Assembly: GCF_002355595.1 (NCBI RefSeq)
Contig: NZ_AP017422.1
Location: 2,790,001 to 2,854,000 of the forward strand
Length of the DNA: 64,000 nucleotides
Direction: 5' to 3'
Origin: Filimonas lacunae
GTDB lineage: Bacteria > Bacteroidota > Bacteroidia > Chitinophagales > Chitinophagaceae
Shown here: one piece after another, positions 1,147-41,120 of the stretch
How the letters are laid out: each line of letters begins with the position of its first letter
How positions within the stretch are numbered: the stretch's first letter is position 1
Made by a program: the position numbers and the translations under genes
The notes under the pieces: model-generated
Database searches by the model: none
Told to the model about the DNA's origin: nothing
What the model saw: the letters and a program-made list of their open reading frames with translations, nothing else

Positions 1147-2223
1147 CTAATACTCCTGGCCCTGCTGTGGATTGGCCCGCTGCTTTTGCTCTAATTTTTT
1201 ATTGGGAGCAGCTGGCTTTTTAGGAGCTGGTTTGGCTTTTTCAGCCGCTTCCTGCTTGTTGCGCTCCATGTTTTTAATAGATTGGTCGTCGAGCATTTTT
1301 TCGTCGCTTTTGCCACTCACATCATCTTTCAGTGGGCTGGGCATAGGGGCCTGACCGTCCTGCAGTTTAAAGTTGAACAGCTTTTCTACGTATTCCCATC
1401 TGCCGTTATTCCATTTAAAACCTTCATAATCACCATCCGGTACCAGCGAGCTTCGTCTGTCCGGGTGGCCGGTTGTGCTTACCAGGTGCTCAAAAACGAT
1501 CATGTCCATTTCGGCGTCGTAGTTCATACGGGCACGGGAGTCTTTCTTAAACTCCAGGAAAAAACGGTAAGCAGGCTGCGGGGGCTTGATGTCATCGTTC
1601 TTATAAGCAAAGAAAGGACCACCAAAACGGGGCTTGCCATCTTCGCCAAACGTAAGCACATCAATCCATTTTTTAGTAGTGGTGGCGTTGTTGTCGTCCA
1701 GCCCTATTAAAGTATAATATTTATGGTTGTTGAACGTTTTCATCACCATTTTATAATAGATAGCACCAATCCAGTTGAAGTTACTGCGTACACTATCCCA
1801 GGGCTCTTCGGCGTAATCGCTCATGTCAATCAGTGGAAACAGCTTTAACGATCCGTCTGGCGTGTTCATTTGGATACACCCGCGCTGACGGTGAAAAGCA
1901 TCGTCACGTTCAAACTGCCAGGTAAAAATGCGAAAAGTACTGTCTGGCGCATAAATGCGGGAGATGTTATCCACCGAATCAAAAGGGTAGTAGAACGAGT
2001 TGGGTACTTTTAATGCCTGCACCAGGTTGCGGATAAACAGGCTATCGGCCTGAAAACGATGGGTGGCGTATTTGGCAAACACCATCAGCTTACCCAGTTT
2101 TTGTAAAGAATCTTCGGCTATTTTAAGTTGTTGGGTATGGGCAGGCGTAATTACCTGGGCCTCGCTTTGCATCGGTCCGGATAGTAATACTATTGCCAGT
2201 AACAAGGAGAAAAATTGCTTCAT
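1147..2223 (-). CDS. Secreted protein of unknown function
   Basis: 358 residues. A clear Sec signal peptide (MKQFFSLLLAIVLLSG, cleavage near SEAQ) indicates export. The body is aromatic- and charge-rich (YYPFDSVDNISRIY, FNWIGAIYYKMV) with no motif I can name. The last 60 residues are low complexity, rich in Lys, Ala, Pro and Gln (KAKPAPKKPAAPNKK), possibly a flexible tail. It is the last gene of the minus-strand operon, 62 bp behind the HAD phosphatase, and is followed by the terminator at 1075-1110. I do not recognise the family; a link to envelope glycan assembly is suggested only by position. Confidence 0.8.
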   Translation of the reverse strand: MKQFFSLLLAIVLLSGPMQSEAQVITPAHTQQLKIAEDSLQKLGKLMVFAKYATHRFQADSLFIRNLVQALKVPNSFYYPFDSVDNISRIYAPDSTFRIFTWQFERDDAFHRQRGCIQMNTPDGSLKLFPLIDMSDYAEEPWDSVRSNFNWIGAIYYKMVMKTFNNHKYYTLIGLDDNNATTTKKWIDVLTFGEDGKPRFGGPFFAYKNDDIKPPQPAYRFFLEFKKDSRARMNYDAEMDMIVFEHLVSTTGHPDRRSSLVPDGDYEGFKWNNGRWEYVEKLFNFKLQDGQAPMPSPLKDDVSGKSDEKMLDDQSIKNMERNKQEAAEKAKPAPKKPAAPNKKLEQKQRANPQQGQEY

Positions 2224-2285
2224 ATCGTACCTGAATTACATAGTTAAACGAAAACAGCTGCCGGGCTGGTGTGTCAGCCCTTTTT

Positions 2286-2840
2286 TTAGGCTTTTGTTAA
2301 GGCCTGTAAATGGGCCGCATATTCGGCCAGGCTGTTAAAGCGTTGTTCTATTAACGGGTGAGGAAAAGGTGTTTCGGGGTTGGTAGTAGCTAAAAACACG
2401 CTATGAGCTATACCGGCATTATGCGCAAACTCCATATCGCTTAATTTATTACCTACCATTATGCTTTTGGTAAAATCAATATCCGGGAAATCGGCTTTGG
2501 CCTGAAAAGCCATACCGGGGTTAGGTTTGCGGTTGTAGGCATCCTGGTCCAGGTCGGGGGCAAAGTATATTTTATCAATACGGCCACCTAGCTTTTTCAT
2601 TTCGCCCAGCATATGGTCGTGAATTTCGGTAAGATGGTCTACCGTCATCAGGCCTTTGCCAATACCTTTCTGGTTGGTAACCATTACAATAGTGCCAAAC
2701 AGCTGGTTAAACACAGGCATGGCTTCCAGCACGCCTTCATAAAAGCCAAATTCGCCTACGTGTAAAATATAATCCGCTTTCTTCTCCAGGTTAATCACGC
2801 CATCCCTGTCTAAAAATAAAGTCCAGCTTTTATCCATCAT
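2286..2840 (-). CDS. gmhB: HAD-IIIA family phosphatase, GmhB-like (heptose 1,7-bisphosphate 7-phosphatase)
   Basis: 184 residues, normal for the family. HAD motif I is LFLDRDGVIN with the nucleophile and acid/base Asp pair. VTNQKGIGKG corresponds to motif II, the Lys of NRKPNPGM to motif III, and VGNKLSDMEFA to motif IV. It would remove the 7-phosphate of D-glycero-D-manno-heptose 1,7-bisphosphate. The cysteine zinc-binding loop of typical E. coli GmhB is absent, so substrate assignment rests partly on the neighbours gmhA and the nucleotidyltransferase. It lies 21 bp downstream of the latter. Start at 2840 or the next codon (2837). Confidence 0.82.
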   Translation of the reverse strand: MMDKSWTLFLDRDGVINLEKKADYILHVGEFGFYEGVLEAMPVFNQLFGTIVMVTNQKGIGKGLMTVDHLTEIHDHMLGEMKKLGGRIDKIYFAPDLDQDAYNRKPNPGMAFQAKADFPDIDFTKSIMVGNKLSDMEFAHNAGIAHSVFLATTNPETPFPHPLIEQRFNSLAEYAAHLQALTKA

Positions 2841-2861
2841 GGTATTGTGGTTGTAAACAAA

Positions 2862-3560
2862 TTAAACACCTGCCAGTTCTGTTTGCACGCGCTCATAATC
2901 TTCCGGAATGCCAATGTCTATAAAGTAAGCATCCTGCACCAGGCCGCACATAACGCGCTGTTGGTATAAGGCTTCGAGGTAATCTTTTTCAAACGAAAAT
3001 TTTTGTGGAAGAGCTTCCTGCACAAAGGCAGGTATGTTCAGTGCAAACATGCCGGCATTAATAAAACCCTGTTCGTAATACTGCTTTTCTTTAAAGCTGG
3101 TGATACGGCCCTGCACATCAGTTTCTACCACACCAAAGCGATCGAACTGTTGCATAGGCTTTAACAGCAGGGTACAGGCTGCCTGTTGCTGCTGGTGAAA
3201 CTGACTTAGCTGTGCCACGTTACCTTTAAACAACGTGTCGCCATTGGTCACCAGCACCGTATTGCTTTTTACCAGCCGGCACGCATGCTTAATAGCACCA
3301 CCGGTGCCTAACGGCTCGTCTTCGGTGCTGATGCTGTAATTGCCTTGTGGCAAGGCCTGTTGTAAAAAGCTGAGAAAGTAATCGTGCTTATAGCCCAGGG
3401 CAAACACAAAGTGCTCAATACCCTGTTGTTGCAGGCTGGTAATTACGTATTGTAAAAACGGCTTACCGTTAACAGGGGCCATACATTTGGGCAGTTCCGG
3501 AACGGCGCTGCGCAGGCGTGTGCCTAAGCCACCTGCTAACACTATTGCTTCTGTAATCAT
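2862..3560 (-). CDS. hddC: Nucleotidyltransferase, HddC-like (heptose-1-phosphate guanylyltransferase)
   Basis: 232 residues from MITEAIVLAGG. The nucleotide-binding signature LAGGLGTRLR, the PKCMAPVNGKPFL motif and the metal-binding VTNGDT are all present, as is a typical acceptor region (FINAGMFALN, FIDIGIPEDYE). The family transfers NMP to sugar 1-phosphates. Beside GmhA and GmhB, the likely product is GDP-D-glycero-alpha-D-manno-heptose. The start at 3560 is chosen because its ATG shares one base with the gmhA stop (TAATG), suggesting translational coupling; a longer reading to 3593 would overlap gmhA. Mannose-1-phosphate specificity cannot be excluded. Confidence 0.85.
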   Translation of the reverse strand: MITEAIVLAGGLGTRLRSAVPELPKCMAPVNGKPFLQYVITSLQQQGIEHFVFALGYKHDYFLSFLQQALPQGNYSISTEDEPLGTGGAIKHACRLVKSNTVLVTNGDTLFKGNVAQLSQFHQQQQAACTLLLKPMQQFDRFGVVETDVQGRITSFKEKQYYEQGFINAGMFALNIPAFVQEALPQKFSFEKDYLEALYQQRVMCGLVQDAYFIDIGIPEDYERVQTELAGV

Positions 3561-4138
3561 TATGGGAAAAGGTTGGCTTCTACCAGCTGACAAATAATAT
3601 GACCTATCAGGATATGACTTTCCTGTATACGTGGCGTATCGGTAGAGGGTACATTGAATAAGTAATCGCTCAGCTCTTTCATAGCGCCACCAGTTGCGCC
3701 GGTAAAGCCTACGGTAATCACTCCCTGATTACGGGCAGCTTCCATGGCTTTAATAATGTTGGTGCTGTTGCCCGAAGTGCTAAAGCCTACCAGTACGTCG
3801 CCATTGTTGGCGGTGCCTTCTACCAGGCGGGCATATATTACATCATAGCTGTAATCGTTGGCTACAGCGGTTAAATAAGAAGTGTTGCAATGCAAAGCTT
3901 CGGCAGGCAAAGCTTTCCTGTTTTTATAAAAACGGCCTGAGAATTCAGCCGCCAGGTGTTGCGCATCGGCTGCGCTGCCACCGTTACCGCAAAAAAGCAC
4001 TTTACCACCCAGCTGAAAGCATTTGGTGATAGCCTCTACGCAGGTAATGATGGTTTGATGAACGGTTTCATCGGTAAGTAGTTGTTGTTTTACAGCAATA
4101 GAAGCCTGTATAAGACCGGAGATCTGGTTATTTGTCAT
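3560..4138 (-). CDS. gmhA: Sedoheptulose-7-phosphate isomerase (SIS domain)
   Basis: 192 residues, the usual GmhA length. The SIS-domain signature LFCGNGGSAADAQHLAAEF is near residues 48-66. It is followed by the substrate-binding stretch LVGFSTSGNSTNI and a C-terminal ESHILIGHIIC helix, both diagnostic of GmhA. It converts sedoheptulose 7-phosphate to D-glycero-D-manno-heptose 7-phosphate in the cytosol, the first step of ADP- or GDP-heptose synthesis. Its stop overlaps the start of hddC. The heptose 7-phosphate kinase (HddA) needed between GmhA and GmhB is not in this cluster. Confidence 0.93.
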   Translation of the reverse strand: MTNNQISGLIQASIAVKQQLLTDETVHQTIITCVEAITKCFQLGGKVLFCGNGGSAADAQHLAAEFSGRFYKNRKALPAEALHCNTSYLTAVANDYSYDVIYARLVEGTANNGDVLVGFSTSGNSTNIIKAMEAARNQGVITVGFTGATGGAMKELSDYLFNVPSTDTPRIQESHILIGHIICQLVEANLFP

Positions 4139-4160
4139 GCTGCAAATGTAGCAAACCAGA

Positions 4161-5315
4161 TTACAAATTGCGGATAGTATCGGTTAATACTTTCCAGCTA
4201 TACTTCTTCTTTTCCTCCCGTAAATAAGGTAGAAAATGCTGTTCGCCAATGAGGTATAACTGAATAATATGTTCGGCTATAGACTCTGGCGTTGGTTCTG
4301 CTACCAGGCCCACTTCTCCATTAGGCACCAGTTCGGGCAATCCCCCTACGTTAGTTACCAGCATGGGTTTTTCAAAGTGATAGGCCAGGGGGGTAACGCC
4401 ACTTTGTGTGGCATTTCGGTAGGGCTGTATTACAAAATCAGCCGCGCTGAGATAGTACTTCACCTCACTATCGGGAATGAAATCGGTGCGTAATTCCAGC
4501 ATAGCGCCTAAGTTGGCTTCTGCAATCAGCTGCTGATAAGGGGCGGCATCTTCAAAAAACTCACCAGCTACCATTAGTTTCATCTCTGAGGGCACAAAAC
4601 GTTCGCCACTTTTTGTGGTAAGCGGCTGGTACTTATCCTTAATAATCGCCATCGCCTGTAGCAACAGGTCCAGGCCTTTATAACGGCGTATAAAACCAAA
4701 GAATAAAATCAGCGGCATTTGTGTATCCAAACCCAGGCGTTTGCGTGCTGCGGTTTTATCCAGTGCAGTTCCAAAGTTATCATACAATGGATGCACCACC
4801 TGTTGGGCTGGCTTTTGCGAAAACTGGCGCAGGTCTTTCATTACCTTTTCACTCATGGTAACAAAAGCATCTATCGGCTTCACAAAATAGCGGGTAAAAG
4901 GTGTGTCGCCCGGTCTTTTTTCATGGGGTATTATATTATCTGCAATACATACCACTTTTGTGTGTTTGTTCTTTTTTACCTGGCGTAAAATAGTACCCAA
5001 ACATGGTCCCATTAAAGGCAGCCAGTAACGCACCACAATAATATCCGGTTGAAGCTTACGCAGTTCACGCCCTACTTTTAACCAGTTTAAAGGGTTAACT
5101 GAATTAATGCAAACCTTAATGTTCACATCGGTGGGAGCAGGTTCTGATGAATACTGCGTGGTGCCCGGATACATAAATTCCGGGTACTGTAAACTAAAAG
5201 TATAGATAGTGGTATCGTACCCATCTGCCATAAACTGGCGGGCCAGTCTTTCATTAAAACTAGCCAAACCGCCGCGTAAGGGATGGGCAGGGCCTATAAT
5301 CACTGCTTTTTGCAT
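4161..5315 (-). CDS. Glycosyltransferase family 4 (GT-B fold)
   Basis: 384 residues. The N-terminal Rossmann half begins VIIGPAHPLRGGLASFNERLA, the acceptor side of GT4 enzymes. The C-terminal half contains LILFFGFIRRYKGLDLLLQA and QPYRNATQSGVTPLAYHFEKP, then the GGLPELV nucleotide-sugar binding segment. It would add a sugar from an NDP donor to an envelope or extracellular glycan. Its ATG overlaps the stop of the upstream GT2 gene by one base (TAATG), so the two are probably translated together. The heptose genes downstream make GDP-heptose a plausible donor, but this is inference. Confidence 0.9.
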   Translation of the reverse strand: MQKAVIIGPAHPLRGGLASFNERLARQFMADGYDTTIYTFSLQYPEFMYPGTTQYSSEPAPTDVNIKVCINSVNPLNWLKVGRELRKLQPDIIVVRYWLPLMGPCLGTILRQVKKNKHTKVVCIADNIIPHEKRPGDTPFTRYFVKPIDAFVTMSEKVMKDLRQFSQKPAQQVVHPLYDNFGTALDKTAARKRLGLDTQMPLILFFGFIRRYKGLDLLLQAMAIIKDKYQPLTTKSGERFVPSEMKLMVAGEFFEDAAPYQQLIAEANLGAMLELRTDFIPDSEVKYYLSAADFVIQPYRNATQSGVTPLAYHFEKPMLVTNVGGLPELVPNGEVGLVAEPTPESIAEHIIQLYLIGEQHFLPYLREEKKKYSWKVLTDTIRNL

Positions 5316-6259
5316 TAAACGCCTATCTTTTTCTCTATCAGGTAAGTATTTCTTTCAGAAGAGTTGCGGCTTACCAGCTCGGCTATAAAGCCTGCCAGAA
5401 ACAGCTGCAATCCCATTATCATTGTAGTCATAGCCAGGTAAAAGGCCGGACGGTTGGTTAACGAAAAATTATCGGCATAATGCAGCTTAGCCACACACAG
5501 GTATCCACAGCTGATTAAACCTATTAAAAAGAACAACGTACCATACAATCCAAAAAAGTGCATCGGTCTTTTGCCAAACTTGCTGATGAAAGTAATGGTG
5601 GCCAGATCTAAAAAGCCATTGATAAATCTTTCCCAGCCAAACTTAGTAGTGCCGTATTTACGGGGGCGGTGTTCTACCACTTTTTCCCCAATCTTCCGGA
5701 AACCAGCCCATTTGGCCAGCACAGGAATATAACGGTGCATTTCACCATATACCTCTATACATTTAATTACCTTTTTACGGTAAGCTTTCAAGCCACAGTT
5801 GAAATCGTTCAGTTGAATGCCCGAACTCTTACGTGCTGCGGCATTAAACAGTTTGGAAGGCAGGTTTTTGGTAAAAGTATTGTCGTAACGTTTCTTTTTC
5901 CAACCGCTTACCAGGTCGTACTTATCTTCTATAATCATGCGACGCAGTTCAGGAATTTCGTCAGGCGAATCCTGTAAGTCGGCATCCATGGTAATTACCA
6001 CGTCGCCCTGCGATGCTTTAAAACCTTCGTTTAAGGCCGCCGCCTTGCCATAGTTGCGCTGGAAGCGAATACCTTTTACGTAACTGTTTTCGGCACTCAG
6101 TTTTTCAATCACCTCCCAGCTGGTATCGGTGCTACCATCGTCTATCATTATAATTTCAAAGCTCCATCCATTGTTGTTGATAACACGTGCAATCCATTCA
6201 GAAAGCTCGGGAAGGGATTCTTCCTCGTTAAACAGTGGTATGATAATCGATAAATCCAT
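5315..6259 (-). CDS. Membrane-anchored glycosyltransferase family 2 (DPM1/ArnC type)
   Basis: 314 residues. The GT-A domain starts LSIIIPLFNEEESLPEL. It carries the donor-site motif MIDDGSTDTSW and the metal-binding MDADLQD, followed by GLKAYRKKVI. Two C-terminal membrane helices (about residues 230-255 and 265-290) match polyprenyl-phosphate glycosyltransferases, which load a sugar onto a lipid carrier at the inner membrane. It directly abuts the DUF4199 gene (no gap) and overlaps the GT4 gene by one base. The exact sugar is unknown. Confidence 0.9.
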   Translation of the reverse strand: MDLSIIIPLFNEEESLPELSEWIARVINNNGWSFEIIMIDDGSTDTSWEVIEKLSAENSYVKGIRFQRNYGKAAALNEGFKASQGDVVITMDADLQDSPDEIPELRRMIIEDKYDLVSGWKKKRYDNTFTKNLPSKLFNAAARKSSGIQLNDFNCGLKAYRKKVIKCIEVYGEMHRYIPVLAKWAGFRKIGEKVVEHRPRKYGTTKFGWERFINGFLDLATITFISKFGKRPMHFFGLYGTLFFLIGLISCGYLCVAKLHYADNFSLTNRPAFYLAMTTMIMGLQLFLAGFIAELVSRNSSERNTYLIEKKIGV

Positions 6260-6832
6260 TTAGAAAGGTTGCTTGTTTTCTTTTTTGATGATCACAGCTA
6301 TTACAGCAGATTCGGCAAAAGCCCATATCAGCCCCAGGCCATATCCCAGGAATACGGTTTTCAAACCTGTTTCTGTTTTGCTTTTTTCCGCGTTTTCCAT
6401 TGCTTTGTCAATATCCTCTTCACTGGCTTTATACTGCTCCATAAAGTGACGAACTTTGTCCAGTCCCTTCTGAAAGCTTTTCTCTGTAAGGTCTTTGTCT
6501 ACAAAGTTGTATAAAACATAAGTGGCCAGGGCAATCAGCAGGCCGGATATCACATAACTGATAAATGCAAACTTTAAACCTTCCTGGAAGGTAATATAAC
6601 CTCCCAGTCTCTTACGCAGTGCAAAGCCCGCAAACAACAGTATGGCAAAAATGTAAGGCACCCAGGTACCTACAAATAAGAATTGCACAAAGATGTCTAT
6701 GCCGGCTGCCCAGGTACCGTATAAGATAATGATAGCTAAAAGGCCGGTGATAATGCCAAATTTGATTCCCTCTTTCTGAATGAGGACGGGTTGTTTCACC
6801 ACGTCAGGCTGCGTAAGAATATCAGGTTGCAT
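6260..6832 (-). CDS. DUF4199 family membrane protein
   Basis: 190 residues with about four membrane helices: FGIITGLLAIIILYG, YIFAILLFAGFAL, FAFISYVISGLLIAL and the C-terminal LGLIWAFAESAVIAVII. A charged amphipathic stretch lies before the last one. The pattern, including GYITFQEGLKFAF in the second loop, is that of DUF4199, a Bacteroidota family without known activity. It lies between the dihydroorotase-like gene (1 bp gap) and the GT2 gene (0 bp gap). I recall this gene order from other Bacteroidota (memory, unchecked), which would point to a shared, undefined role. Confidence 0.85.
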   Translation of the reverse strand: MQPDILTQPDVVKQPVLIQKEGIKFGIITGLLAIIILYGTWAAGIDIFVQFLFVGTWVPYIFAILLFAGFALRKRLGGYITFQEGLKFAFISYVISGLLIALATYVLYNFVDKDLTEKSFQKGLDKVRHFMEQYKASEEDIDKAMENAEKSKTETGLKTVFLGYGLGLIWAFAESAVIAVIIKKENKQPF

Positions 6833-6833
6833 G

Positions 6834-8105
6834 TTAGTTAAGATGTGCTTTTCCTTTATGAATAATACCGGTTACTTTTCCTTTCAGGGTTTTATCCAGG
6901 AAAGGACTGTTGGCCGATTTGCTTTGATTGTTTTTGGTGGTAAGCACTGTAGTGGCTTCCGGCTCAAACAAGGTGAAAGAAGCCGTGGCGCCAGGTGTTA
7001 CACTACCGGTAGGTGTTGCAAAAATGGCGGCTGCGTTGGTGCCAAATAAGACAGCTACCTGTGCAGGCGTTAATTCCGGCAGGGCGGTTTGCACTGCGGC
7101 ATAAGCCGTTTGCAGAGAAATCATCCCGGCTTTGGCATATTCAAACTCACAGGTTTTATTGTCCCAGTTCTGCGGCAGGTGGTGCGATGCTAGACAGTCT
7201 ACCACACCTTCCAGCACTGCCTGGCGCAAAGCCATCATATCGCTGCGTAAACGCAGGGGAGGTGTTACCTTTAAATTGGTATCGTAAGTGCTCAGGTCTT
7301 CATCACAAAACACCAGGTGATAAGGGGTAACGCTACAGGTTACCTGTAAGCCGGCAGCCTTCGCTTCTTTTATCAGCGCAATGCCTTTGGCGGTGCTAAC
7401 ACCGGTAATATGCAATTTGCTGCCGGTGTATTTTACCAGTTCAATATCGCGCATAATCACCAGTTCCTCACCAATGGCAGGTATACCGGGCAGGCCCATG
7501 CGGGTGCTTACAATGCCTTCGTGCATTAAGCCGTATTTGCTGATGCTGTCATCCACCGGCACCTGAATCAATACCCCGTCAAACGCTTTTACATATAATA
7601 AGGCTTTCAGCAGCAGGCCGGGGCTTTGCACCGGGTGCAACCCATCGGTAAAAGCTACGGCACCGCTATTGTACATGTCGTACATTTCGCCCAGTTCTTT
7701 TCCTTCTGCATTTTTGGTGATAGTGCCCAGCGGGCGTATGGTAACCGGCAGGGTAGTGGTACCCTGGGTAATATATTGTACCTGTGTTTTATTGCTTACT
7801 ACCGGCTGCGTATTGGGCAGGGTAAACACCTGCGTGTAACCACCGGCTGCTGCTGTTGCGGCACCCGATTCCAGGGTTTCGCGATGTTCCAGCCCCGGAT
7901 CGCAAAAATGCGAGAACGCATCCACCCATCCCGGCGATACCACCAGTCCTGGTTTTTCAATAATAGTAACGCTATTGTCAATGCCGGAAGTAATGGACTT
8001 ATCAATGGTAACTACCACACCATTTTCAATCAGAATATCCTGTGTTGTTCCGTTAAAGGAAGAGCCTGGATCTGCTACAAATGCCTGCCTGAGTAAAATC
8101 TTCAT
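6834..8105 (-). CDS. Dihydroorotase-like amidohydrolase, probably catalytically inactive
   Basis: 423 residues, full length for class I dihydroorotase, with the overall landmarks in order (GLPGIPAIGEE, LHITGVSTAKG, VTPYHLVFCDE, NLKVTPPLR). Most metal ligands are lost. The HxH motif reads DAFSHF (first His is Phe64). The His of the usual HxED segment is Pro183. The HVST His is Gly235. The Asp of the usual TDHAPH is His308 in SHHLPQ. Only the Asp of AFTDG is kept. It is therefore more like the non-catalytic PyrC-prime proteins that scaffold aspartate transcarbamoylase in other bacteria. It is first in the glycosyltransferase operon. Annotating it as active PyrC would be unsafe. Confidence 0.85.
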   Translation of the reverse strand: MKILLRQAFVADPGSSFNGTTQDILIENGVVVTIDKSITSGIDNSVTIIEKPGLVVSPGWVDAFSHFCDPGLEHRETLESGAATAAAGGYTQVFTLPNTQPVVSNKTQVQYITQGTTTLPVTIRPLGTITKNAEGKELGEMYDMYNSGAVAFTDGLHPVQSPGLLLKALLYVKAFDGVLIQVPVDDSISKYGLMHEGIVSTRMGLPGIPAIGEELVIMRDIELVKYTGSKLHITGVSTAKGIALIKEAKAAGLQVTCSVTPYHLVFCDEDLSTYDTNLKVTPPLRLRSDMMALRQAVLEGVVDCLASHHLPQNWDNKTCEFEYAKAGMISLQTAYAAVQTALPELTPAQVAVLFGTNAAAIFATPTGSVTPGATASFTLFEPEATTVLTTKNNQSKSANSPFLDKTLKGKVTGIIHKGKAHLN

Positions 8106-8150
8106 GAGATTTTGAAAATTTTTTGCAATATATGCCGATTAATTCAATCC

Positions 8151-8193
8151 CTGCCCATAACCTTGCCACCGGCAGGTAAATAGCTATGGGCAC
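8151..8193 (-). terminator. Stem-loop after the MBL hydrolase gene (possible terminator)
   Basis: TGCCCATA (8152-8159) pairs with TATGGGCA (8185-8192), and a smaller CCTTGCC/GGCAGG stem sits inside. It lies just downstream of the MBL gene stop (8202) and upstream of the dihydroorotase-like start (8105). There is no good T-run, so it may be a weak terminator or a leader structure. Confidence 0.4.
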
Positions 8194-8201
8194 AGGTAAA
8201 T

Positions 8202-25030: not shown

Positions 25031-25509
25031 TGAATTTATATCAATCATTAGGGTTCCTGGTTTTTGGCAGCCGCCTGAAACGCCTGAGCGACACGTTCCT
25101 CAGCGATGTCAACCGTATTTACAAAGCCCATGATATTGCTTTTGACGCCGCCTGGTTTCCGGTGTTTTACATTCTTTCGCAGGAAGATGCTGTTACCATC
25201 AGCTCTATTGCCACACAGCTGGAAGTAACCCACAGTGCTGCCAGCCAGCTCGTTAGCAACTTACAGGAAAAAGGACTGGTAAAAGCCGGTACCAACGCCG
25301 AAGACGCCCGCAAAAAAGTAGTGAGCTTTACGCCCAAAGGCAAAAAAATACTGGACCAGGTGCTGCCGGTGTGGACTGCTTTGCAAACAGCTATGGAACA
25401 GCTGGTGGCAGAGGGGCCTAACAGTGCCCATATGTTACAGGCCATCAGTGAAATGGAAGCGGGTTTGGCCCGCGAGCCTTTACTATCCCGCATCGAAAAC
25501 AATTTATAA
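25030..25509 (+). CDS. MarR family transcriptional regulator, probable hut regulator
   Basis: 159 residues from the ATG at 25030; the TTG at 25006 lies inside the palindromic operator and is unlikely. Winged helix about residues 48-105: ISSIATQLEVTHSAASQLVSNLQEKGLVKAG is the recognition helix region and DARKKVVSFTPKGKKIL the wing. It probably represses its own operon until a histidine-pathway metabolite such as urocanate binds. hutH follows after 22 bp. Confidence 0.85.
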   Translation: MNLYQSLGFLVFGSRLKRLSDTFLSDVNRIYKAHDIAFDAAWFPVFYILSQEDAVTISSIATQLEVTHSAASQLVSNLQEKGLVKAGTNAEDARKKVVSFTPKGKKILDQVLPVWTALQTAMEQLVAEGPNSAHMLQAISEMEAGLAREPLLSRIENNL

Positions 25510-25531
25510 TTCTTTAATACCCCCTTATAAC

Positions 25532-27091
25532 ATGAACACATTTGAATACGGAGCAGAATCCCTTACAGTAAGCAAAGTGCTGGCCATTGCAGCCGGAACT
25601 TTACAGGGTGTGCTCAGTGATGCCAGCCGCAGTAAAATAAAAACCAGCGAAGCGCATGTGCAGCAGATTGTAGACGAAAACATTACTGTATATGGTATTA
25701 ACACCGGCTTTGGCATATTGGCCAACACCAGCATCAGTGCAGAAGATACGCTTACGTTACAGTACAAAATACTGCAAAGCCATAGCGTAGGCGTAGGCAA
25801 TCCTATACCCGCCGAGGTGGCTAAAATAATGCTGATTACCAAGGTGCAGGCGTTAGCCCAGGGCTTTTCGGGAGCACAGCTTACCACCCTGGAACGCCTG
25901 ATATGGCATATTGATAATGATGTAATACCGGTAGTGCCGGAAAAAGGAAGCGTAGGTGCATCGGGCGATCTGGCGCCGCTGGCTCATTTATGCCTGCCCC
26001 TTATTGGATTGGGCGAAGTGATCTGGCAGGGGAAAACCTATGCTACACGGGATGTATTGCAACAGTTTCAGCTGCAACCTATACAGCTGGGGCCTAAAGA
26101 AGGGCTGGCGCTGATTAACGGCACCCAGTTTATATTATCGTTTGCGGTAAAAGCAGTGCAGCGTATGCACTATTGCCTGGAAGCTGCGGATATTATAGGT
26201 GCTATGAGCCTGGAGGCTTTAACGGGTACCAAATCGCCTTTTGATGAAAGGCTGCATCAGCTGCGCCCCTTTACCGGTAACCAGCTGGTAGCACAAAGGC
26301 TGCGTACTATACTGGATGATAGCGACATTATGCAAAGCCATATAGATTGTGGCCGTGTGCAGGATCCTTATTCCTTACGTTGCATGCCGCAGGTGCATGG
26401 CGCCAGCCGCACCGCATGGCTGCATCTGAAACAGCTTACCCAGGTAGAGCTGAATGCGGTAACAGATAACCCTATTATCTTCTCGGCCAACGATACTATC
26501 AGCGGGGGCAACTTCCACGGTCAGCCGCTGGCGTTGCCTTTAGACTATTGCTGTTTTGCCGCAGCCGAAGCGGGTAATATCAGCGACCGTCGCAGTTACC
26601 TGTTGCTGGAAGGCAAATGGGGCCTGCCTGTATTGCTGATGAACAACGTGGGGCTGAACAGTGGCTTTATGATTCCGCAGTATACTACCGCCGCCCTGGT
26701 AACAGAAAACAAAACTTTATGTTTCCCCGCCAGCGCCGATAGCATACCAACCTCGCTGGGGCAGGAAGACCATGTGAGTATGGGCAGCATCAGTGGCCGT
26801 AAGTTGAACACCGTACTGGATAACCTGGAATATATACTGGCTATTGAATTAATGAGCGCCTGCCAGGCCATTGAATTCCGCCGTCCGTTAAAAAGCAGTG
26901 CCATACTGGAAGCGGCCCACAGCTATGTGCGCAGCTTTGTATCGTTTGCCGAGGAAGACCGCATATTCGCTGTGGACATCAATAAAATCCGCGGTATGAT
27001 CAGCGATTTCTCCTTAGTGCAACATGTGGATGGCTGGGCAAAACAGCAAGGCATTGCACTGAATGGCAACTATCCCGAATTTCAATTATAA
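25532..27091 (+). CDS. hutH: Histidine ammonia-lyase
   Basis: 519 residues, normal for HAL. The MIO prosthetic-group motif is [14 protein letters not shown] with Ala143-Ser144-Gly145, which cyclise. The active-site segment YGINTGFG is near residue 54. [14 protein letters not shown] and the QEDHVSMG motif also match HAL rather than phenylalanine ammonia-lyase. It deaminates L-histidine to urocanate in the cytosol. The start is at 25532, 22 bp after the MarR gene; an upstream extension in frame would overlap that gene. Confidence 0.96.
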
Positions 27092-27111
27092 ATGACCACA
27101 ACCAAACAATT

Positions 27112-28779
27112 ATGAGCAATACTGTCACCTACAAAAACTACGATGTAGAAAAATATAAAACGCCTACCGGCAGCCATCTTACCTGTAAAGGCTGGGTACA
27201 GGAAGCGGCTTTGCGTATGCTGCTGAATAACCTGAACCCTGAAGTGGCTGAACGTCCGGACGATTTGATCGTATACGGCGGCCGTGGTAAAGCAGCCCGC
27301 AATTTTGAAGCGCTGGATAACATTATTGCCAGTCTTAAAAAACTGGAAAGTAATCAAACCCTGCTTATCCAAAGTGGTAAGCCCGTGGGCATATTACAAA
27401 CCCATACGGATGCGCCACGTGTGTTGCTCAGCAACTCGCAACTGGTTCCTAACTGGGCTAACTGGCAACATTTTGACGAACTGGAGCGCAAGGGGCTGAT
27501 GATGTACGGACAAATGACCGCGGGCTCGTGGATTTACATCGGCTCGCAAGGCATTGTGCAAGGCACTTACGAAACCTTTGCCGCAGTAGCCCGTAAACAT
27601 TTTAACGGTACCCTCAAAGGCACCCTGAGTGTAACCGCCGGTTTAGGTGGTATGGGCGGTGCTCAACCTTTGTCGGTTACGATGAATGAAGGGGTATGCC
27701 TGGTGGCGGAAGTAGAAGAGTGGCGGATTGATAAGCGTTTGGAAACCAAATACCTGGATGTCAAATACACCAATATAGATGAAGCCATAGATGCAGCAGT
27801 AGCGGCGAAGGCCGCTGGCAAAGCGTTAAGCATAGGAGTGTTGTGTAATGCTGTGCACCTGTTGCAGCGCCTGATAGAGCGCAATATTGCCATAGATACC
27901 CTTACCGATCAAACCAGCGCGCACGATCCGCTGATAGGTTATATACCGCATACACTTACCAACCAGCAGGCCAATGAACTGCGCACAAAGGATAAAGAAC
28001 AATACCTGGCGCTGGCTTATGATAGCATGAAGCTGCATGTAGAGCTGATGCTGGCGTTGCAGGCCAAAGGTGCTGTCACGTTTGATTACGGCAACAACCT
28101 GCGTGCCCGTGCTAAAGAGCATGGTTTGCAGAACGCCTTCGATTTTCCGGGCTTTGTTCCGGCCTATATACGCCCGTTGTTCTGCGAAGGAAAAGGGCCT
28201 TTCCGCTGGGCAGCGCTCAGTGGCGACCCGGCTGATATTGCCGTAACGGATGAGCTGATTGCCAACCTGTTTCCCGAAAATGAGAGCCTGCAACGCTGGT
28301 TAAAACTGGCCAAAGAGCGTATTGCCTTCCAGGGATTACCTGCCCGCATTTGCTGGCTGGGACAGGGTGAACGTGAAAAAGCCGGGCTGGCTTTTAACGA
28401 ACTGGTACGCACCGGCAAGGTAAAAGCCCCGATTGTAATAGGACGCGACCATCTTGATACCGGCTCTGTAGCTTCACCCAACCGCGAAACAGAAGCCATG
28501 CAGGATGGCAGTGATGCGGTAGCCGACTGGCCTATACTCAACGCCCTGGTAAACACAGCCGGTGGTGCCAGCTGGGTAAGTTTACACCACGGTGGTGGCG
28601 TAGGCATGGGCTATAGTATACATGCAGGCATGGTAATAGTGGCTGATGGTACGGAGGAAGCGGCAGCACGTTTGTCAAGAGTATTACGTAACGATCCCGG
28701 GATGGGGGTAATACGTCATGCGGATGCGGGGTATGATGTTGCTATTGACACAGCTAAAAAGCATAACCTTACTTTGTAG
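27112..28779 (+). CDS. hutU: Urocanate hydratase
   Basis: 555 residues, full length. NAD-binding features include [29 protein letters not shown] and [10 protein letters not shown]. The C-terminal signature [22 protein letters not shown] is diagnostic. It converts urocanate to 4-imidazolone-5-propanoate, the second step of histidine degradation. It lies 20 bp after hutH. hutI and the final hydrolase are not in the window, so the pathway must be completed elsewhere. Confidence 0.97.
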
Positions 28780-29446: not shown

Positions 29447-29710
29447 TCAGTATTCGGTAAATACCTCATCCTTATAACACCACAACCACCTTTCGCCCGG
29501 CTCGCCTGAAGCAATTACCGGGTGACCTGTGGCGTGAAAATGCTGGGTCATGTGTTTGTTGGGCGAATCGTCGCAGCACAGGGTAACGCCGCAGGTCTGG
29601 CATACACGAAGGTGTACCCAGCGGCTGTTGGTTTTGGCGCATTCTTCGCACACATGTGTATGGGAAAGCGTAACATTGTCTATATCTATTAAATGTTCAC
29701 AAAGGCTCAT
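29447..29710 (-). CDS. UBP-type zinc finger protein
   Basis: 87 residues, essentially one zinc finger of the ubiquitin-protease (ZnF-UBP) type. The metal residues are arranged as CEH, CEEC, CQTCGVTLCC and a His-rich stretch (NKHMTQHFHATGHPV), ending EPGERWLWCYKDEVF. In eukaryotes this fold binds the free C-terminus of ubiquitin; its bacterial role is not established. It is 7 bp downstream of the receiver/reductase fusion and is third in that operon, so it may bind the tail of a partner protein or act as a redox or zinc sensor. Confidence 0.88.
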   Translation of the reverse strand: MSLCEHLIDIDNVTLSHTHVCEECAKTNSRWVHLRVCQTCGVTLCCDDSPNKHMTQHFHATGHPVIASGEPGERWLWCYKDEVFTEY

Positions 29711-29717
29711 AACAGGT

Positions 29718-31382
29718 TTATTTTACTTCTGCCAAATATTTATGTACAAAACTGATAGCCATGGAGCCTTCGCCCACAGCTGCAGCCACGCGGTTCATAG
29801 CGGTGGCGCGCACATCTCCCGCGGCAAAGATGCCGGGACAGCTGGTTTCCAGTAAATAGGGATCTCTTTCTTCCTTCCAGATGCTGGTAAACTGCGCATA
29901 GTTTTTTAGCTCACGGCCGGTTTCAATAAAGCCCTTTTCATCTTTGATTATATTCAGTTCCAGCCAGTCGGTAAAAGGCTTGGCCCCGATGAAAATATAT
30001 AATGCGGCGGCTTGTTCGGTGGTGGAAGCGCCGGTTTTTATATTATGAATAACCAGTTGCTCCAGGCGGTCGCTGCCTTTGGCTTCTGTTACTTCAGTGA
30101 AGGGTCTGACGGTGATGTTGGGAGTGCCCTGTATCTGTTCAATCAGGTAGGCCGACATGGTGGATGTAAGATCTTCCCGGCGTATTAATATGTTCACTTC
30201 TTTGGCAAAGCGCGACAGGTACATCGCTGCCTGGCCGGCGGAATTGCCGCCGCCTACCACGTATACATGTTTGTCGGTACAGGCGGTAGCTTCTGTCATA
30301 GCAGCACCATAATACACACCTGCACCGGTAAAATCAGCACAACCTTTGGTGTCCAGTGTGCGGTAATCAACCCCGGTGGTAATGATCACGCTACGGGTAT
30401 TCACCGAGGTTCCATCTTCCAGCAATATCTGGTTATAGCCATTTTGCCGTTGAATGGATTGTACACTTTGCGGGGTAATAAACTCCGTGCCCAGGCGGGT
30501 AGCCTGTGCAATGGCCCGGCGGGTAAGTTCTGCACCGCTTAATCCCGAAGGAAAGCCCAGGTAGTTTTCTATACGTGAACTGGTGCCGGCTTGTCCGCCA
30601 GGTGCTTTCCGTTCTATCAGCAATGTTTTTAATCCTTCTGATGAGCCATACACGCCTGCCGCCAAACCAGCCGGACCTGCGCCAATGATCACCACATCAT
30701 ACATATCATGCTGCACGCGTGGGTTTAAGCCTACTTTACCGGCCAGTTCCAGGATGGAAGGGTTGGTCAAAAAGGTGCCGTCTTCCAGGAATACTACGGG
30801 AAGGTGATTATTATCGATATTGTTGAGCGTTAATAAATGACAGGCCGGTTCTGTGTTGCGCACATCCATCCACTGGTAGGGGATCAAGTTGCCGGCCAGG
30901 AATTCCTTAATAGCGTGTGAGCGCTGCGAAAACTGGTAACCTATCACCTTTATCCCTTTAAACTCTACTTTGTAGTTCTGCTGCCAGTCGCCCAGCAGAT
31001 CGTCCAGCACGGGGTAAAGCTTTTCCTCAGGTGGGTCCCAGGGCTTTACCAGGTAATAATCCAGCTGTATGGTATTAATGGCTTTAATAGCGGCATCTGT
31101 GTCAGAGTAAGCGGTCAGCAGCACGCGTTTGGCGTCCGGATAAAACTGCATGGCCTTTTCCAGGAAAGCAATACCATCCAGCTCGGGCATCCGTTGGTCG
31201 GATATAAACATGGCAACAGTTTCGCTTTTGTTCTTTAACTCCAGCAAGCTGTCCAATGCTTCCTTTACCAGGGTGGTGCCAATGATACGGTACTGTTCGC
31301 GGTACCTGGTTTTTAAATCACGCACAATAGCCCGCAGCACCTGCGGATCGTCATCAACACATAGGATAATGGGTAAATTCAT
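29718..31382 (-). CDS. Fused response regulator / glutaredoxin-like / thioredoxin-reductase-like flavoprotein
   Basis: 554 residues in three parts. Residues 1-130 are a receiver: acidic VDDDP, phospho-acceptor Asp62 in FISDQRMP, LLTAYSD and LVKPWD. About 145-225 looks like a glutaredoxin fold (IKVIGYQFSQRSHAIKEFL, LPVVFLEDG) in which the CxxC is replaced by SQRSH. About 235-554 is a pyridine nucleotide-disulfide reductase: FAD site VVIIGAGPAGLAAGVYG, NADPH site VYVVGGGNSAGQAA, C-terminal PGIFAAGDVRA. The redox CxxC of thioredoxin reductase is replaced by VYYGAA. It likely moves electrons to a non-disulfide acceptor under phosphorylation control. It sits 20 bp after the kinase gene. Confidence 0.9.
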   Translation of the reverse strand: MNLPIILCVDDDPQVLRAIVRDLKTRYREQYRIIGTTLVKEALDSLLELKNKSETVAMFISDQRMPELDGIAFLEKAMQFYPDAKRVLLTAYSDTDAAIKAINTIQLDYYLVKPWDPPEEKLYPVLDDLLGDWQQNYKVEFKGIKVIGYQFSQRSHAIKEFLAGNLIPYQWMDVRNTEPACHLLTLNNIDNNHLPVVFLEDGTFLTNPSILELAGKVGLNPRVQHDMYDVVIIGAGPAGLAAGVYGSSEGLKTLLIERKAPGGQAGTSSRIENYLGFPSGLSGAELTRRAIAQATRLGTEFITPQSVQSIQRQNGYNQILLEDGTSVNTRSVIITTGVDYRTLDTKGCADFTGAGVYYGAAMTEATACTDKHVYVVGGGNSAGQAAMYLSRFAKEVNILIRREDLTSTMSAYLIEQIQGTPNITVRPFTEVTEAKGSDRLEQLVIHNIKTGASTTEQAAALYIFIGAKPFTDWLELNIIKDEKGFIETGRELKNYAQFTSIWKEERDPYLLETSCPGIFAAGDVRATAMNRVAAAVGEGSMAISFVHKYLAEVK

Positions 31383-31402: not shown

Positions 31403-32800
31403 TTATATGATAACAGGCAGTAGCACGGTAAAAGTAGTGTGTTGTGGCACAGATGTTACTTTTACAAGGCCTTTATGCTGTTTCACAATGTTGTTTACAA
31501 TATCCAGTCCCAGGCCGGTGCCTTTGCCAATGTCTTTGGTGGTGAAAAACGGTTCAAATAACCGGTCCATAACATCCGCAGGTATGCCGGGCCCATTATC
31601 GGTAATGGTTACTTTGGCATAACCCTCTTCCAAACCTGTAGTTATTTCCAGCACACCTTTACCGTTGGCTTCCATAGCGTCCAGGGCATTGTCAATCAGG
31701 TTGGTCCATACCTGGTTTACTTCACTTACCACCACCGGAATCAGGGGCAGTTGGGCATCAAAGTTTTTTATCAGCTGCACATTACCCTGCCGTAGTTTAT
31801 AACCCAATATCACCAGGGTATTGTCAATGCCTTCGTGCAGATTGGTGAACTGCCGCGCAGTACCCTGATCCATATGCGTAAAGGTTTTCACCGAGCCTAC
31901 CAGCTGGGCAATGCGGCGGGAAGCTTCTTCAATATCGGCCACCAGCTTTTCGGTTACCAGGTTTTTATGCAACCAGTTAAAAATGGCCGAACGGTAATGT
32001 TCCGGGATATCAGAAGCAAGCGCATCCAGGCTTTGTACGGTAAAGTCGAAATCGGCAAAACATTCTGCCAGGGCCATGCTGTTGTGAATGTTGTGTGCGT
32101 CCAGCCAGTCGGTTAATTCATCTTCCCGGCTGCTTTTTTGCAATAGTGATAAAGGGGCGGATGGTGTCTGTTGTAAGATGGCCAGCAGTTTTTCTTTTAC
32201 CAGCGCTACCTCGGCAGGCTGCATGCACATAGAGGCGATTTCTTCAAAGCCGGATGGCAACAGTTGCAGGTGTTTTTTTAGCGAAGAAGCACCCCTTACT
32301 ACCGCGGCAGCGGGGTTGTTTAATTCATGGGCCAGCCCGGCGCTAAGCTTTCCTAAAGCCACCATTTTTTCATTCTGCCGCAGAAAGGAAGTAAAGTCCC
32401 GCACACGTGAAGTCATTACATGCACCAGCGCTTCTGTCAGTTCAAAATGGCGGCTTAATTCCTGTATGTTGCCAACAGGAAAGCACAGGTACCGTACAGG
32501 GGTAATGGCTAGTCCGTTCAGGTTGGCAATTTTACCACGTGAGTAAGGCAGATAGCCGCTGATGGTGTTGGCTTCTAAAATGGCCAGCTCTGTTACCTGG
32601 TTCACCTGTTGGTTATATAACCTTACGCGGCCTTCCAGTATAATATTTGTGCCCTTATGCGCAACGCCCTGTTTCACCAGGAAATCGCCGGCAGCCAGCT
32701 CCAGTATATCGCTGTTGTCAATAAGCCATTGCAACTGCACGGCAGGTACATCCTGCAAAGCCTCTATCGATTGCAGCCATTGGACAGTTACAGTGGACAT
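31403..32800 (-). CDS. Soluble histidine kinase with cyclic-nucleotide-binding-type sensor
   Basis: 465 residues and no membrane helix. Residues 10-115 form a CRP-like effector domain ([30 protein letters not shown]). HisKA carries [19 protein letters not shown] with His158. A long helical insertion follows, then HATPase_c: [45 protein letters not shown]. The kinase is the first gene of a three-gene operon and most likely phosphorylates Asp62 of the next protein. The CRP-like pocket lacks an obvious cAMP-binding RxS, so the ligand may differ. Confidence 0.9.
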
Positions 32801-39955: not shown

Positions 39956-41120
39956 TGCCTGCTATAGTGGAAGGTATGATGCCCGTCACTTTTCTTAAAA
40001 GTGTTATCCAGATACTGGATAACAATAAAGACAGCCCCATTACTGATAGTGCTGTTTTAAAAAAATCAATGTCAATGATGTTTAACTGAAATGCTACGGT
40101 GCAGGCAAGCAGGCCAAATTCGCCGGTTTGTGCCAGCAGCGCCCCTGCCTGAAAACTATCTTTCCAGGTAAAACGAAGCCATTTAAAAACGATGGCAGAC
40201 AGGAGGCTGTTAATGATCATTACCAATACCGTAACAGCAATAATGAATGAATAGTGGGCTTTTATATAGTGGATATCGAGCATTAAGCCGATAGAAACAA
40301 AGAACAGGGCTACAAAGAATATTTTAAATGGCCTGAGCGCGCTTTCCAGCCAGTTGAAAACATCGGTTCTGCTCAGATATATACCGGCAATAAAGCTGCC
40401 TATGGCGCCTGTTAAACCCATGGAGGCCGCTAGTAGTGCAAAACCCAGGCAAACAAAACCACCGGCAAAAACCTGTAGTTCATGGTCTTTTTTTATTTCT
40501 TTAAGAAAGGTGAGCTGAAACAGGTTTCTGTTTCTTACCGCACGCAGTAAAAAGAAAATCAGCACACAACCTGCTATGGCAGGCAGAAGATGGGCAAATG
40601 AAGTGTTTCCCTTTTCCATCCATTGAAAGCAGGTGAACACCGGTGCCAGCATAATATCCTGCAGCAATAATATATTTAATACTGTTTTGCCTATATCAGA
40701 TGAAAGCTCGCCATTTCTTCTTAAAAACTCACTTACTACGGCTGTGCTGTTAAAGGTGAGGATAACAGCAAGGAGTATAAAGTTGCCGGTATGCCACCCA
40801 AACCATTTAGTGATAAAGAAAGCACATAACAGGCTCAGGGCTGTTTTTATAAGCTGCGCAATGCAGGCCTTCCATAAAATGCTTTTATTGTCGGGCACTT
40901 CTATTTCAAGGCCCAGGAAAAACATCAGGAAAATAATGCCCATTTCGCCTAATGTAGAGATGTTTTCTGCAGAATGAAATATACCAGACACATAAGGACC
41001 CAGTACAATTCCGGCAAGGATATAGGCCACCAGGTAAGGCTGGTGTAACTTTTTAAGTAAAAAAATAAGTAATAAAATAGCCAGGCATAAAATGCTTACG
41101 GAGAATAGTATATTGTTCAT
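39951..41120 (-). CDS. Cation:proton antiporter, CPA2/KefB type
   Basis: 389 residues from the ATG at 41120. About twelve membrane helices. The conserved helix-5 region of CPA2 reads VILTFNSTAVVSEFLRRNG, earlier GIIFLMFFLGLEIE is characteristic, and TGAIGSFIAGIYLS and LAQTGEFGLLACTV complete the fold. It exchanges K+ or Na+ for H+. It has no TrkA-N regulatory domain, so it is the short form. Its start is 12 bp after an alternative start (41132). Confidence 0.88.
   Translation of the reverse strand: MNNILFSVSILCLAILLLIFLLKKLHQPYLVAYILAGIVLGPYVSGIFHSAENISTLGEMGIIFLMFFLGLEIEVPDNKSILWKACIAQLIKTALSLLCAFFITKWFGWHTGNFILLAVILTFNSTAVVSEFLRRNGELSSDIGKTVLNILLLQDIMLAPVFTCFQWMEKGNTSFAHLLPAIAGCVLIFFLLRAVRNRNLFQLTFLKEIKKDHELQVFAGGFVCLGFALLAASMGLTGAIGSFIAGIYLSRTDVFNWLESALRPFKIFFVALFFVSIGLMLDIHYIKAHYSFIIAVTVLVMIINSLLSAIVFKWLRFTWKDSFQAGALLAQTGEFGLLACTVAFQLNIIDIDFFKTALSVMGLSLLLSSIWITLLRKVTGIIPSTIAGN

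Follow-up and report, generated by a model that had tools for sequence, protein, structure and literature searches.

Response regulators in which a receiver domain (REC) is fused to a thioredoxin reductase (TrxB) are already on record. In the portions of text available to us, this fusion figures among Mycobacterium-like architectures (PMC5847659), the class TrxB response regulators include SCO7298 of Streptomyces coelicolor with its kinase SCO7297 (PMC9739842), and a REC-thioredoxin reductase fusion is found once among thermophilic cyanobacteria (PMC9953108). Furthermore, ferredoxin/flavodoxin NADP+ reductases (FNRs) that are thioredoxin reductase (TrxR)-like and without CXXC are described in the available part of PMC10294844. 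The protein analyzed here, P0001, is encoded in the window, i.e., the whole 64,000-nucleotide stretch of DNA under study from the soil bacterium Filimonas lacunae, and it combines the three elements of the REC-TrxB class, namely, a receiver, a TrxR-like core, and an adjacent kinase gene. The gene and its sites are as follows.

29718..31382, minus strand: P0001, receiver - glutaredoxin-fold - TrxR-like flavoprotein, 554 aa (ORF, Pfam, AlphaFold model)
31008..31382, minus strand: receiver domain of P0001, residues 1-125 (Pfam Response_reg at residues 6-118, 9.3e-14; active-site conservation)
31197-31199, minus strand: putative phospho-acceptor D62 of the receiver (active-site conservation)
30723..30956, minus strand: predicted glutaredoxin-fold domain lacking the cysteine pair, residues 143-220 (models, fold comparison)
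30915..30929, minus strand: SQRSH in place of CPxC, residues 152-156 (Ser152 in 88/96 rows)
29721..30707, minus strand: TrxR-like FAD/NADPH core, residues 226-554 (Pfam, sequence and fold matches)
30660..30695, minus strand: predicted FAD dinucleotide-binding stretch VVIIGAGPAGLA (sequence motif)
30300..30317, minus strand: VYYGAA in place of CATC, residues 356-361 (aligned with own-genome TrxB)
30225..30254, minus strand: predicted NADPH-binding stretch GGGNSAGQAA (sequence motif)
29865..29918, minus strand: insertion of ~18 residues relative to own-genome TrxB, residues ~489-506, with W502 and R506 (alignment)

A misplaced reading frame was ruled out by the single intact ORF and by full-length relatives that are 79% identical. 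In Pfam, the receiver scored 52.0 bits (Response_reg, cut-off of 30.2), and Pyr_redox_2 covered residues 228-539 (2.1e-33). The latter match, together with the two dinucleotide-binding stretches listed above, is in good agreement with the first-pass annotation, which had reported FAD and NADPH motifs. Its observation that SQRSH and VYYGAA stand in place of both CxxC motifs was likewise borne out. Indeed, the cysteines of P0001 are C8, C181, C348, C368, and C515, and neither CxxC site holds any of them. The Filimonas lacunae genome encodes a separate canonical TrxB with CAVC, and P0001 is therefore not its thioredoxin reductase. The CAVC pair of this TrxB aligned onto A360/T363 of P0001 with the gap placed by MAFFT and onto G359/M362 if ungapped. 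W502 and R506 of the insertion were nearly invariant in 70 aligned rows.

Pfam gave no domain match for the middle segment of P0001 up to an E value of 10. The corresponding segment of a homologue, L030, matched Glutaredoxin above the cut-off (23.2 bits against 22.9); among the five middle segments scanned, three had a Glutaredoxin match at E <=0.1, while P0001 and L044 had none. The glutaredoxin fold, earlier a guess, emerged when structure prediction was run. In the AlphaFold model of the full protein (51 sequences; mean pLDDT 88.7, pTM 0.80), residues 144-216 display the glutaredoxin-type order of strands and helices, and the domain modelled alone (pLDDT 91.0) matched 7c12_A with a Z score of 12.4 and an rmsd of 1.4 over 73 aligned residues, as expected of a glutaredoxin fold. 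Further matches of this model were 3zit_B (Z 12.2) and NrdH (1h75, Z 11.2). Tau-class glutathione S-transferases (GSTs) also matched it, with Z scores of up to 9.8; these enzymes use Ser. We also weighed whether Ser152 acts on a thiol cofactor and set this aside, the hosts of the family presumably differing in their low-molecular thiols.

For the TrxR core of the model, the top match was 4up3_A (Z 34.9, rmsd 1.8, 304 aligned residues), and in the Foldseek list for P0001 the first entry was 4xvg (AhpF). Compared with the two forms of Lactococcus lactis TrxR, the core superimposed with a Z score of 34.3 and an rmsd of 2.2 on the flavin-reducing form (5mh4, 301 aligned residues) and with a Z score of 30.9 and an rmsd of 7.6 on the flavin-oxidizing form (5mjk_A, 300 aligned residues). 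The predicted structure resembles the flavin-reducing form more than the flavin-oxidizing one. Such a conformation would suit a protein that has no dithiol to offer the flavin; it may, however, simply be AlphaFold's choice.

We then aligned 96 sequences, P0001 and 95 homologues, of which 31 came from assembled-genome contigs, 45 from the sampled Bacteroidota genomes (45 of 296 held a P0001 homologue at E <=1e-60), and 19 from plasmids. Matches to P0001 were found by tblastn in 684 plasmid records, 14 of which carried at least 80% of the query in one place, and they include Cyanobacteriota, Deinococcota, Actinomycetota, and Pseudomonadota; 19 of these 684 records were chosen by hand for spread. 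Before counting, we left out L035, in which the gene is split; L041, which matched in the receiver alone; L122, which is the window itself; and the short loci L048-L076, which repeat L077-L121. L104 was kept despite its truncation at a contig end. Some of the 31 genome-contig loci are short contigs, on which missing neighbours may be artefacts.

Cysteine was present at position 152 in 2 of the 96 sequences and at position 155 in 4, and no sequence had it at both. Between positions 355 and 365, where P0001 reads VYYGAAMTEA, a single sequence (L134) contained a cysteine. The first-pass annotation had described the loss for P0001 alone; it is instead family-wide, and mutation or decay of one gene was ruled out because the pairs are absent across the 96 aligned sequences. 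Serine occupied position 152 in 88 rows and position 155 in 75, and the cis-proline position, P195, was invariant. With a conserved serine standing where the catalytic cysteine would be, the glutaredoxin-fold domain probably serves for docking rather than for thiol chemistry.

Other CxxC strings nevertheless occur in this family without the two catalytic pairs, in 5 of the 96 chains (L030 and L031 at 368-371; L047, L131, and L135 elsewhere). Those of L030 and L031 (CRGC and CRDC) lie two helix turns past the lost CATC site. As for single residues, C515 was kept in 30 of the 96 rows and C368 in 67, with phenylalanine instead in 17 rows; in part of the family, C368 might conceivably act as a single thiol. 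Replacement of the pairs by another cysteine was rejected on account of these 17 rows and of four chains whose aligned region holds just one cysteine, each at its own position (447 in L043, 514 in L095, 368 in L101, and 435 in the truncated L104). Together with the absence of the pairs, these four chains argue that a dithiol relay within the polypeptide is not a property of the family. In addition, the alignment shows no conserved cysteine at the start of the flavin-proximal helix, which speaks against cysteines placed next to the flavin from elsewhere in the chain. The earlier suggestion that electrons, if they leave, would go to a non-dithiol acceptor gains support from the same four homologues.

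The remainder of the protein is well conserved. In a 70-sequence alignment spanning several phyla, the FAD/NADPH residues G234, G236, G239, G377, N380, and D523, among others, were invariant or nearly so. Mean identity to P0001 over 80 receiver-type rows was 0.49 for the glutaredoxin-like domain, 0.67 for the receiver, and 0.65 for the core. From these sequence comparisons, the role of NADPH and flavin in P0001 is probably not disulfide reduction, although a conserved FAD/NADPH site does not prove turnover.

One enzyme that would fit a TrxR fold without CXXC is a ferredoxin/flavodoxin:NADP+ reductase of the TrxR-like kind (available part of PMC10294844), here under receiver control, and FNRs do appear in both the sequence and the fold match lists. 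P0001 is, however, far closer in sequence to TrxRs (best match, 2.2e-66) than to FNRs (best match, 1.3e-32), its core alignments extend to the TrxR C terminus, with no FNR-type tail apparent in them, and no ferredoxin or flavodoxin gene was noticed next to it. We consider this assignment improbable.

The gene upstream of P0001 points to how the protein might be controlled:

31403..32800, minus strand: P0002, histidine kinase with an N-terminal cNMP-like domain, 20 nt upstream of the P0001 gene (HATPase_c 1.1e-24)

The cNMP_binding score of P0002 was slightly below the Pfam cut-off (26.7 bits against 27.5). Of the 80 receiver-type loci, 65 carry a P0002-like kinase gene in the same orientation no more than 300 nt away, a figure that rises to 68 if the distance is extended to 2 kb; the other 15 have none within 300 nt. 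No such gene was found within that distance in the 15 loci whose protein lacks a receiver. The receiver residues D10, D11, D62, T90, and K113 were kept in 79 to 81 of the 82 rows with letters at these positions (D62 in 80). All six receiver-less members that were scanned had a cNMP_binding domain above the Pfam cut-off ahead of the same module; six others, judged by length, have neither a receiver nor a cNMP domain. A profile built from the kinases matched nine of nine cNMP-fused reductases, a result that any cNMP domain might give. In a tree from a quick search, with a very long outgroup branch and 19 of the 96 rows omitted as near copies, 61 of the 62 receiver-type rows formed one clade (support 81), L134 falling outside.

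Because the input domain can be swapped, receiver for cNMP domain, we take the glutaredoxin-like/TrxR-like part for the output. Read plainly, these domain arrangements suggest that cNMP-like or receiver domains serve as interchangeable inputs. The first-pass annotation had offered the opposite direction, with the flavin domain as a sensor of NADPH or the redox state for the receiver. Although a fused receiver might in principle be acted on by a flavoprotein, the receiver keeps its residues, co-occurs with an adjacent kinase, and in other members is missing or has given way to a cNMP domain, as would be expected of an input module; we regard sensing by the flavin domain as very improbable.

Directly downstream of P0001 lies a second recurrent neighbour:

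29447..29710, minus strand: P0003, UBP-type zinc-finger protein, 87 aa, 7 nt downstream of the P0001 gene (zf-UBP 2.6e-11)

With 44.0 bits against a Pfam cut-off of 22.7, P0003 is a zf-UBP protein and the sole such match in its genome; 2 of the 14 control genomes have the family. Among the 296 sampled Bacteroidota genomes, 31 had a P0003 match, and 28 of these 31 also had a reductase-like gene, where ~4.7 were expected (Fisher 3e-24, with the kinship of the genomes ignored). The other three are G042, G085, and G286, and conversely 17 of the 45 genomes with a reductase-like gene had no P0003 match. Counted by locus, 52 of the 95 had a co-oriented UBP gene no more than 2 kb from the reductase-like gene (45 of the 80 receiver-type loci and 7 of the 15 others), and the remaining 43 had no UBP gene within that distance. 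The pairing of UBP and reductase genes occurs in Bacteroidota, Actinomycetota, and Pseudomonadota and, by ORF comparison of one locus (L128), in Gemmatimonadota. P0003 is the likeliest protein partner of P0001, and the recurrent UBP zinc finger provides a concrete candidate partner for a TrxR-like family.

A cysteine-rich partner raises the question of a split TrxR, in which the UBP protein, or a thioredoxin/DsbA-like neighbour, would bring the dithiol to the flavin. On a Streptomyces plasmid (L046), TrxA (thioredoxin above the cut-off) adjoins a UBP gene and the cNMP form of the reductase, and DsbA/Thioredoxin_4-like genes were present in 13 of the 95 loci. The cysteines of P0003, however, fit the zf-UBP zinc-ligand pattern and are presumably taken up as zinc ligands, 12 of the 13 DsbA-like proteins have a single cysteine (CPYS or CPFS), and the window operon has no thioredoxin/DsbA-like neighbour. 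We give little chance to a split enzyme of this type. In flavobacterial loci such as L096 (at 2461-2985), L085, and L087, the DsbA/Thioredoxin_4-like gene lies in a run with antiporter, UBP, kinase, and reductase genes.

Turning to other neighbours, CPA2-type antiporter genes were found in 21 of the 95 loci, 17 of which come from one family of Flavobacteriia-like genomes (f23). Beside the reductase-like gene of three loci (L110 at 1267-3315, L111 at 2575-4602, and L114 at 6168-8201), the UBP domain forms the C terminus of a KefC-like CPA2 antiporter, the fusion being recognized by Pfam in L110 and by similarity in L111 and L114. In L109 (7951-10284), the last ~70 residues of a KefC-like antiporter look glutaredoxin-like by eye; Pfam found only exchanger and TrkA domains in that protein and no glutaredoxin at its C terminus, and its KefC score was below the cut-off (278.3 against 752). 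Chaperone genes form another group of neighbours. The Streptomyces plasmid carries a dnaK-grpE-dnaJ-clpB-trx-UBP cluster with ClpB above the cut-off, and in L127 a ClpK-like ATPase (below the cut-off) and Hsp20 are convergent to the reductase-like gene. In L118 (1965-4568), ClpB (above the cut-off) is immediately upstream of a receiver-less member. Neither a CPA2 antiporter nor ClpB is encoded in the window operon, the nearest PF00999 match being ~9 kb off (39996-41081). Also in the window, an ORF downstream of the P0003 gene (28857-29390, minus strand) encodes a small protein whose start resembles a signal peptide and which matches FG-GAP weakly (E 0.059); it was not a recurrent neighbour across loci. 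Two genes at 25424-28779 (plus strand) resemble, by eye, what we take to be histidine ammonia-lyase and urocanase.

These neighbours bear on whether P0001 turns over at all. It could be a pseudo-enzyme that binds FAD and NADPH without turnover and signals the NADPH/NADP+ state to partners, be it the UBP finger, an antiporter, or a chaperone, much as KTN/flavoprotein ancillary subunits act for Kef channels. The lack of a conserved catalytic cysteine, the conserved docking-type glutaredoxin fold, the fusions of UBP to KefC-like antiporters, and the 21 loci with CPA2 genes are all consistent with such a role. Few of these cases are independent, however, given the share of f23 among them, the window operon has no CPA2 gene, and the strong conservation seen at both dinucleotide sites would suit turnover, too. 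We hold this role to be doubtful.

We thus hypothesize, giving the idea an even chance, that P0001 acts in a cytoplasmic two-component system as its effector, a cysteine-free NADPH flavoprotein under the control of phosphorylation. The histidine kinase encoded next to it, P0002, with its cNMP-like domain, would phosphorylate D62 of the receiver, and phosphorylation would switch the flavoprotein between states. As the output, a TrxR-like flavoprotein without its own dithiol would bind FAD and NADPH, and its glutaredoxin fold and the zinc-finger partner P0003 would be used for docking. From the NADPH-reduced flavin, electrons could pass to a non-dithiol acceptor (a quinone, an electrophile, oxygen, or another carrier). 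Such turnover is, in our estimate, about as probable as its opposite; the alternative, in which NADPH-reduced P0001 is an NADPH-charged regulatory subunit, is doubtful. A broader picture, which we put forward as speculative and unlikely, is that of a widespread switch: a cysteine-free TrxR/glutaredoxin relic, charged with NADPH and gated by phosphorylation or a cNMP-like domain, would act through the UBP finger on KefC-like K+/H+ antiporters in some lineages or on ClpB/DnaK-type chaperones in others, so that ion balance and protein quality control would be tied to NADPH status.

The family members examined are without the residues for the reaction implied by their annotation as thioredoxin-disulfide reductase. 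Should the hypothesis prove correct, many two-component and one-component systems would have a flavoprotein as their output. The family would also offer naturally occurring TrxR folds that uncouple hydride transfer to the flavin from thiol chemistry.

How, then, does P0001 compare with the known systems? Like the described REC-TrxB proteins, it has a receiver, a pyridine-nucleotide-disulfide-oxidoreductase core, and an adjacent kinase gene. However, the available parts of these accounts mention neither missing cysteines nor a glutaredoxin-fold domain nor a UBP partner (PMC9739842, PMC5847659). In the literature, most subscription papers aside, we found no functional study of a REC-TrxB fusion, no report of its missing cysteines, and no bacterial UBP protein reported beside it; the available text of PMC8945050 does not contain "cyclic nucleotide," and that of PMC6599016 has nothing on the fusion. 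The kind is already known, then, and the cysteine-less variant with its partners looks undescribed in the literature searched.

P0001 shares with low-Mr TrxB the predicted fold and the FAD/NADPH sites (Z up to 34.9), but it is without the CxxC and has the ~18-residue insertion before the last FAD motif. Its score against TIGR01292 (low-Mr thioredoxin reductase) was 236.5 bits, below the curated whole-protein cut-off of 343.45. As in AhpF, a thioredoxin-fold domain precedes the TrxR core; unlike AhpF, P0001 has one glutaredoxin fold, no cysteine pairs, and a receiver in front, and it scored 149.7 bits against TIGR03140 (AhpF; cut-off of 502.9). The catalytic cysteine of glutaredoxins (CPxC or CxxS) is likewise absent, P0001 reading SQRS. 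Finally, proteins annotated as "cyclic nucleotide-binding domain-containing thioredoxin-disulfide reductase" have the same pair-less glutaredoxin-fold and TrxR-like module and, in some loci, a UBP neighbour. In these cNMP-type reductases, the cNMP domain replaces the receiver, and a P0002-type kinase gene was found in none of their nine loci.
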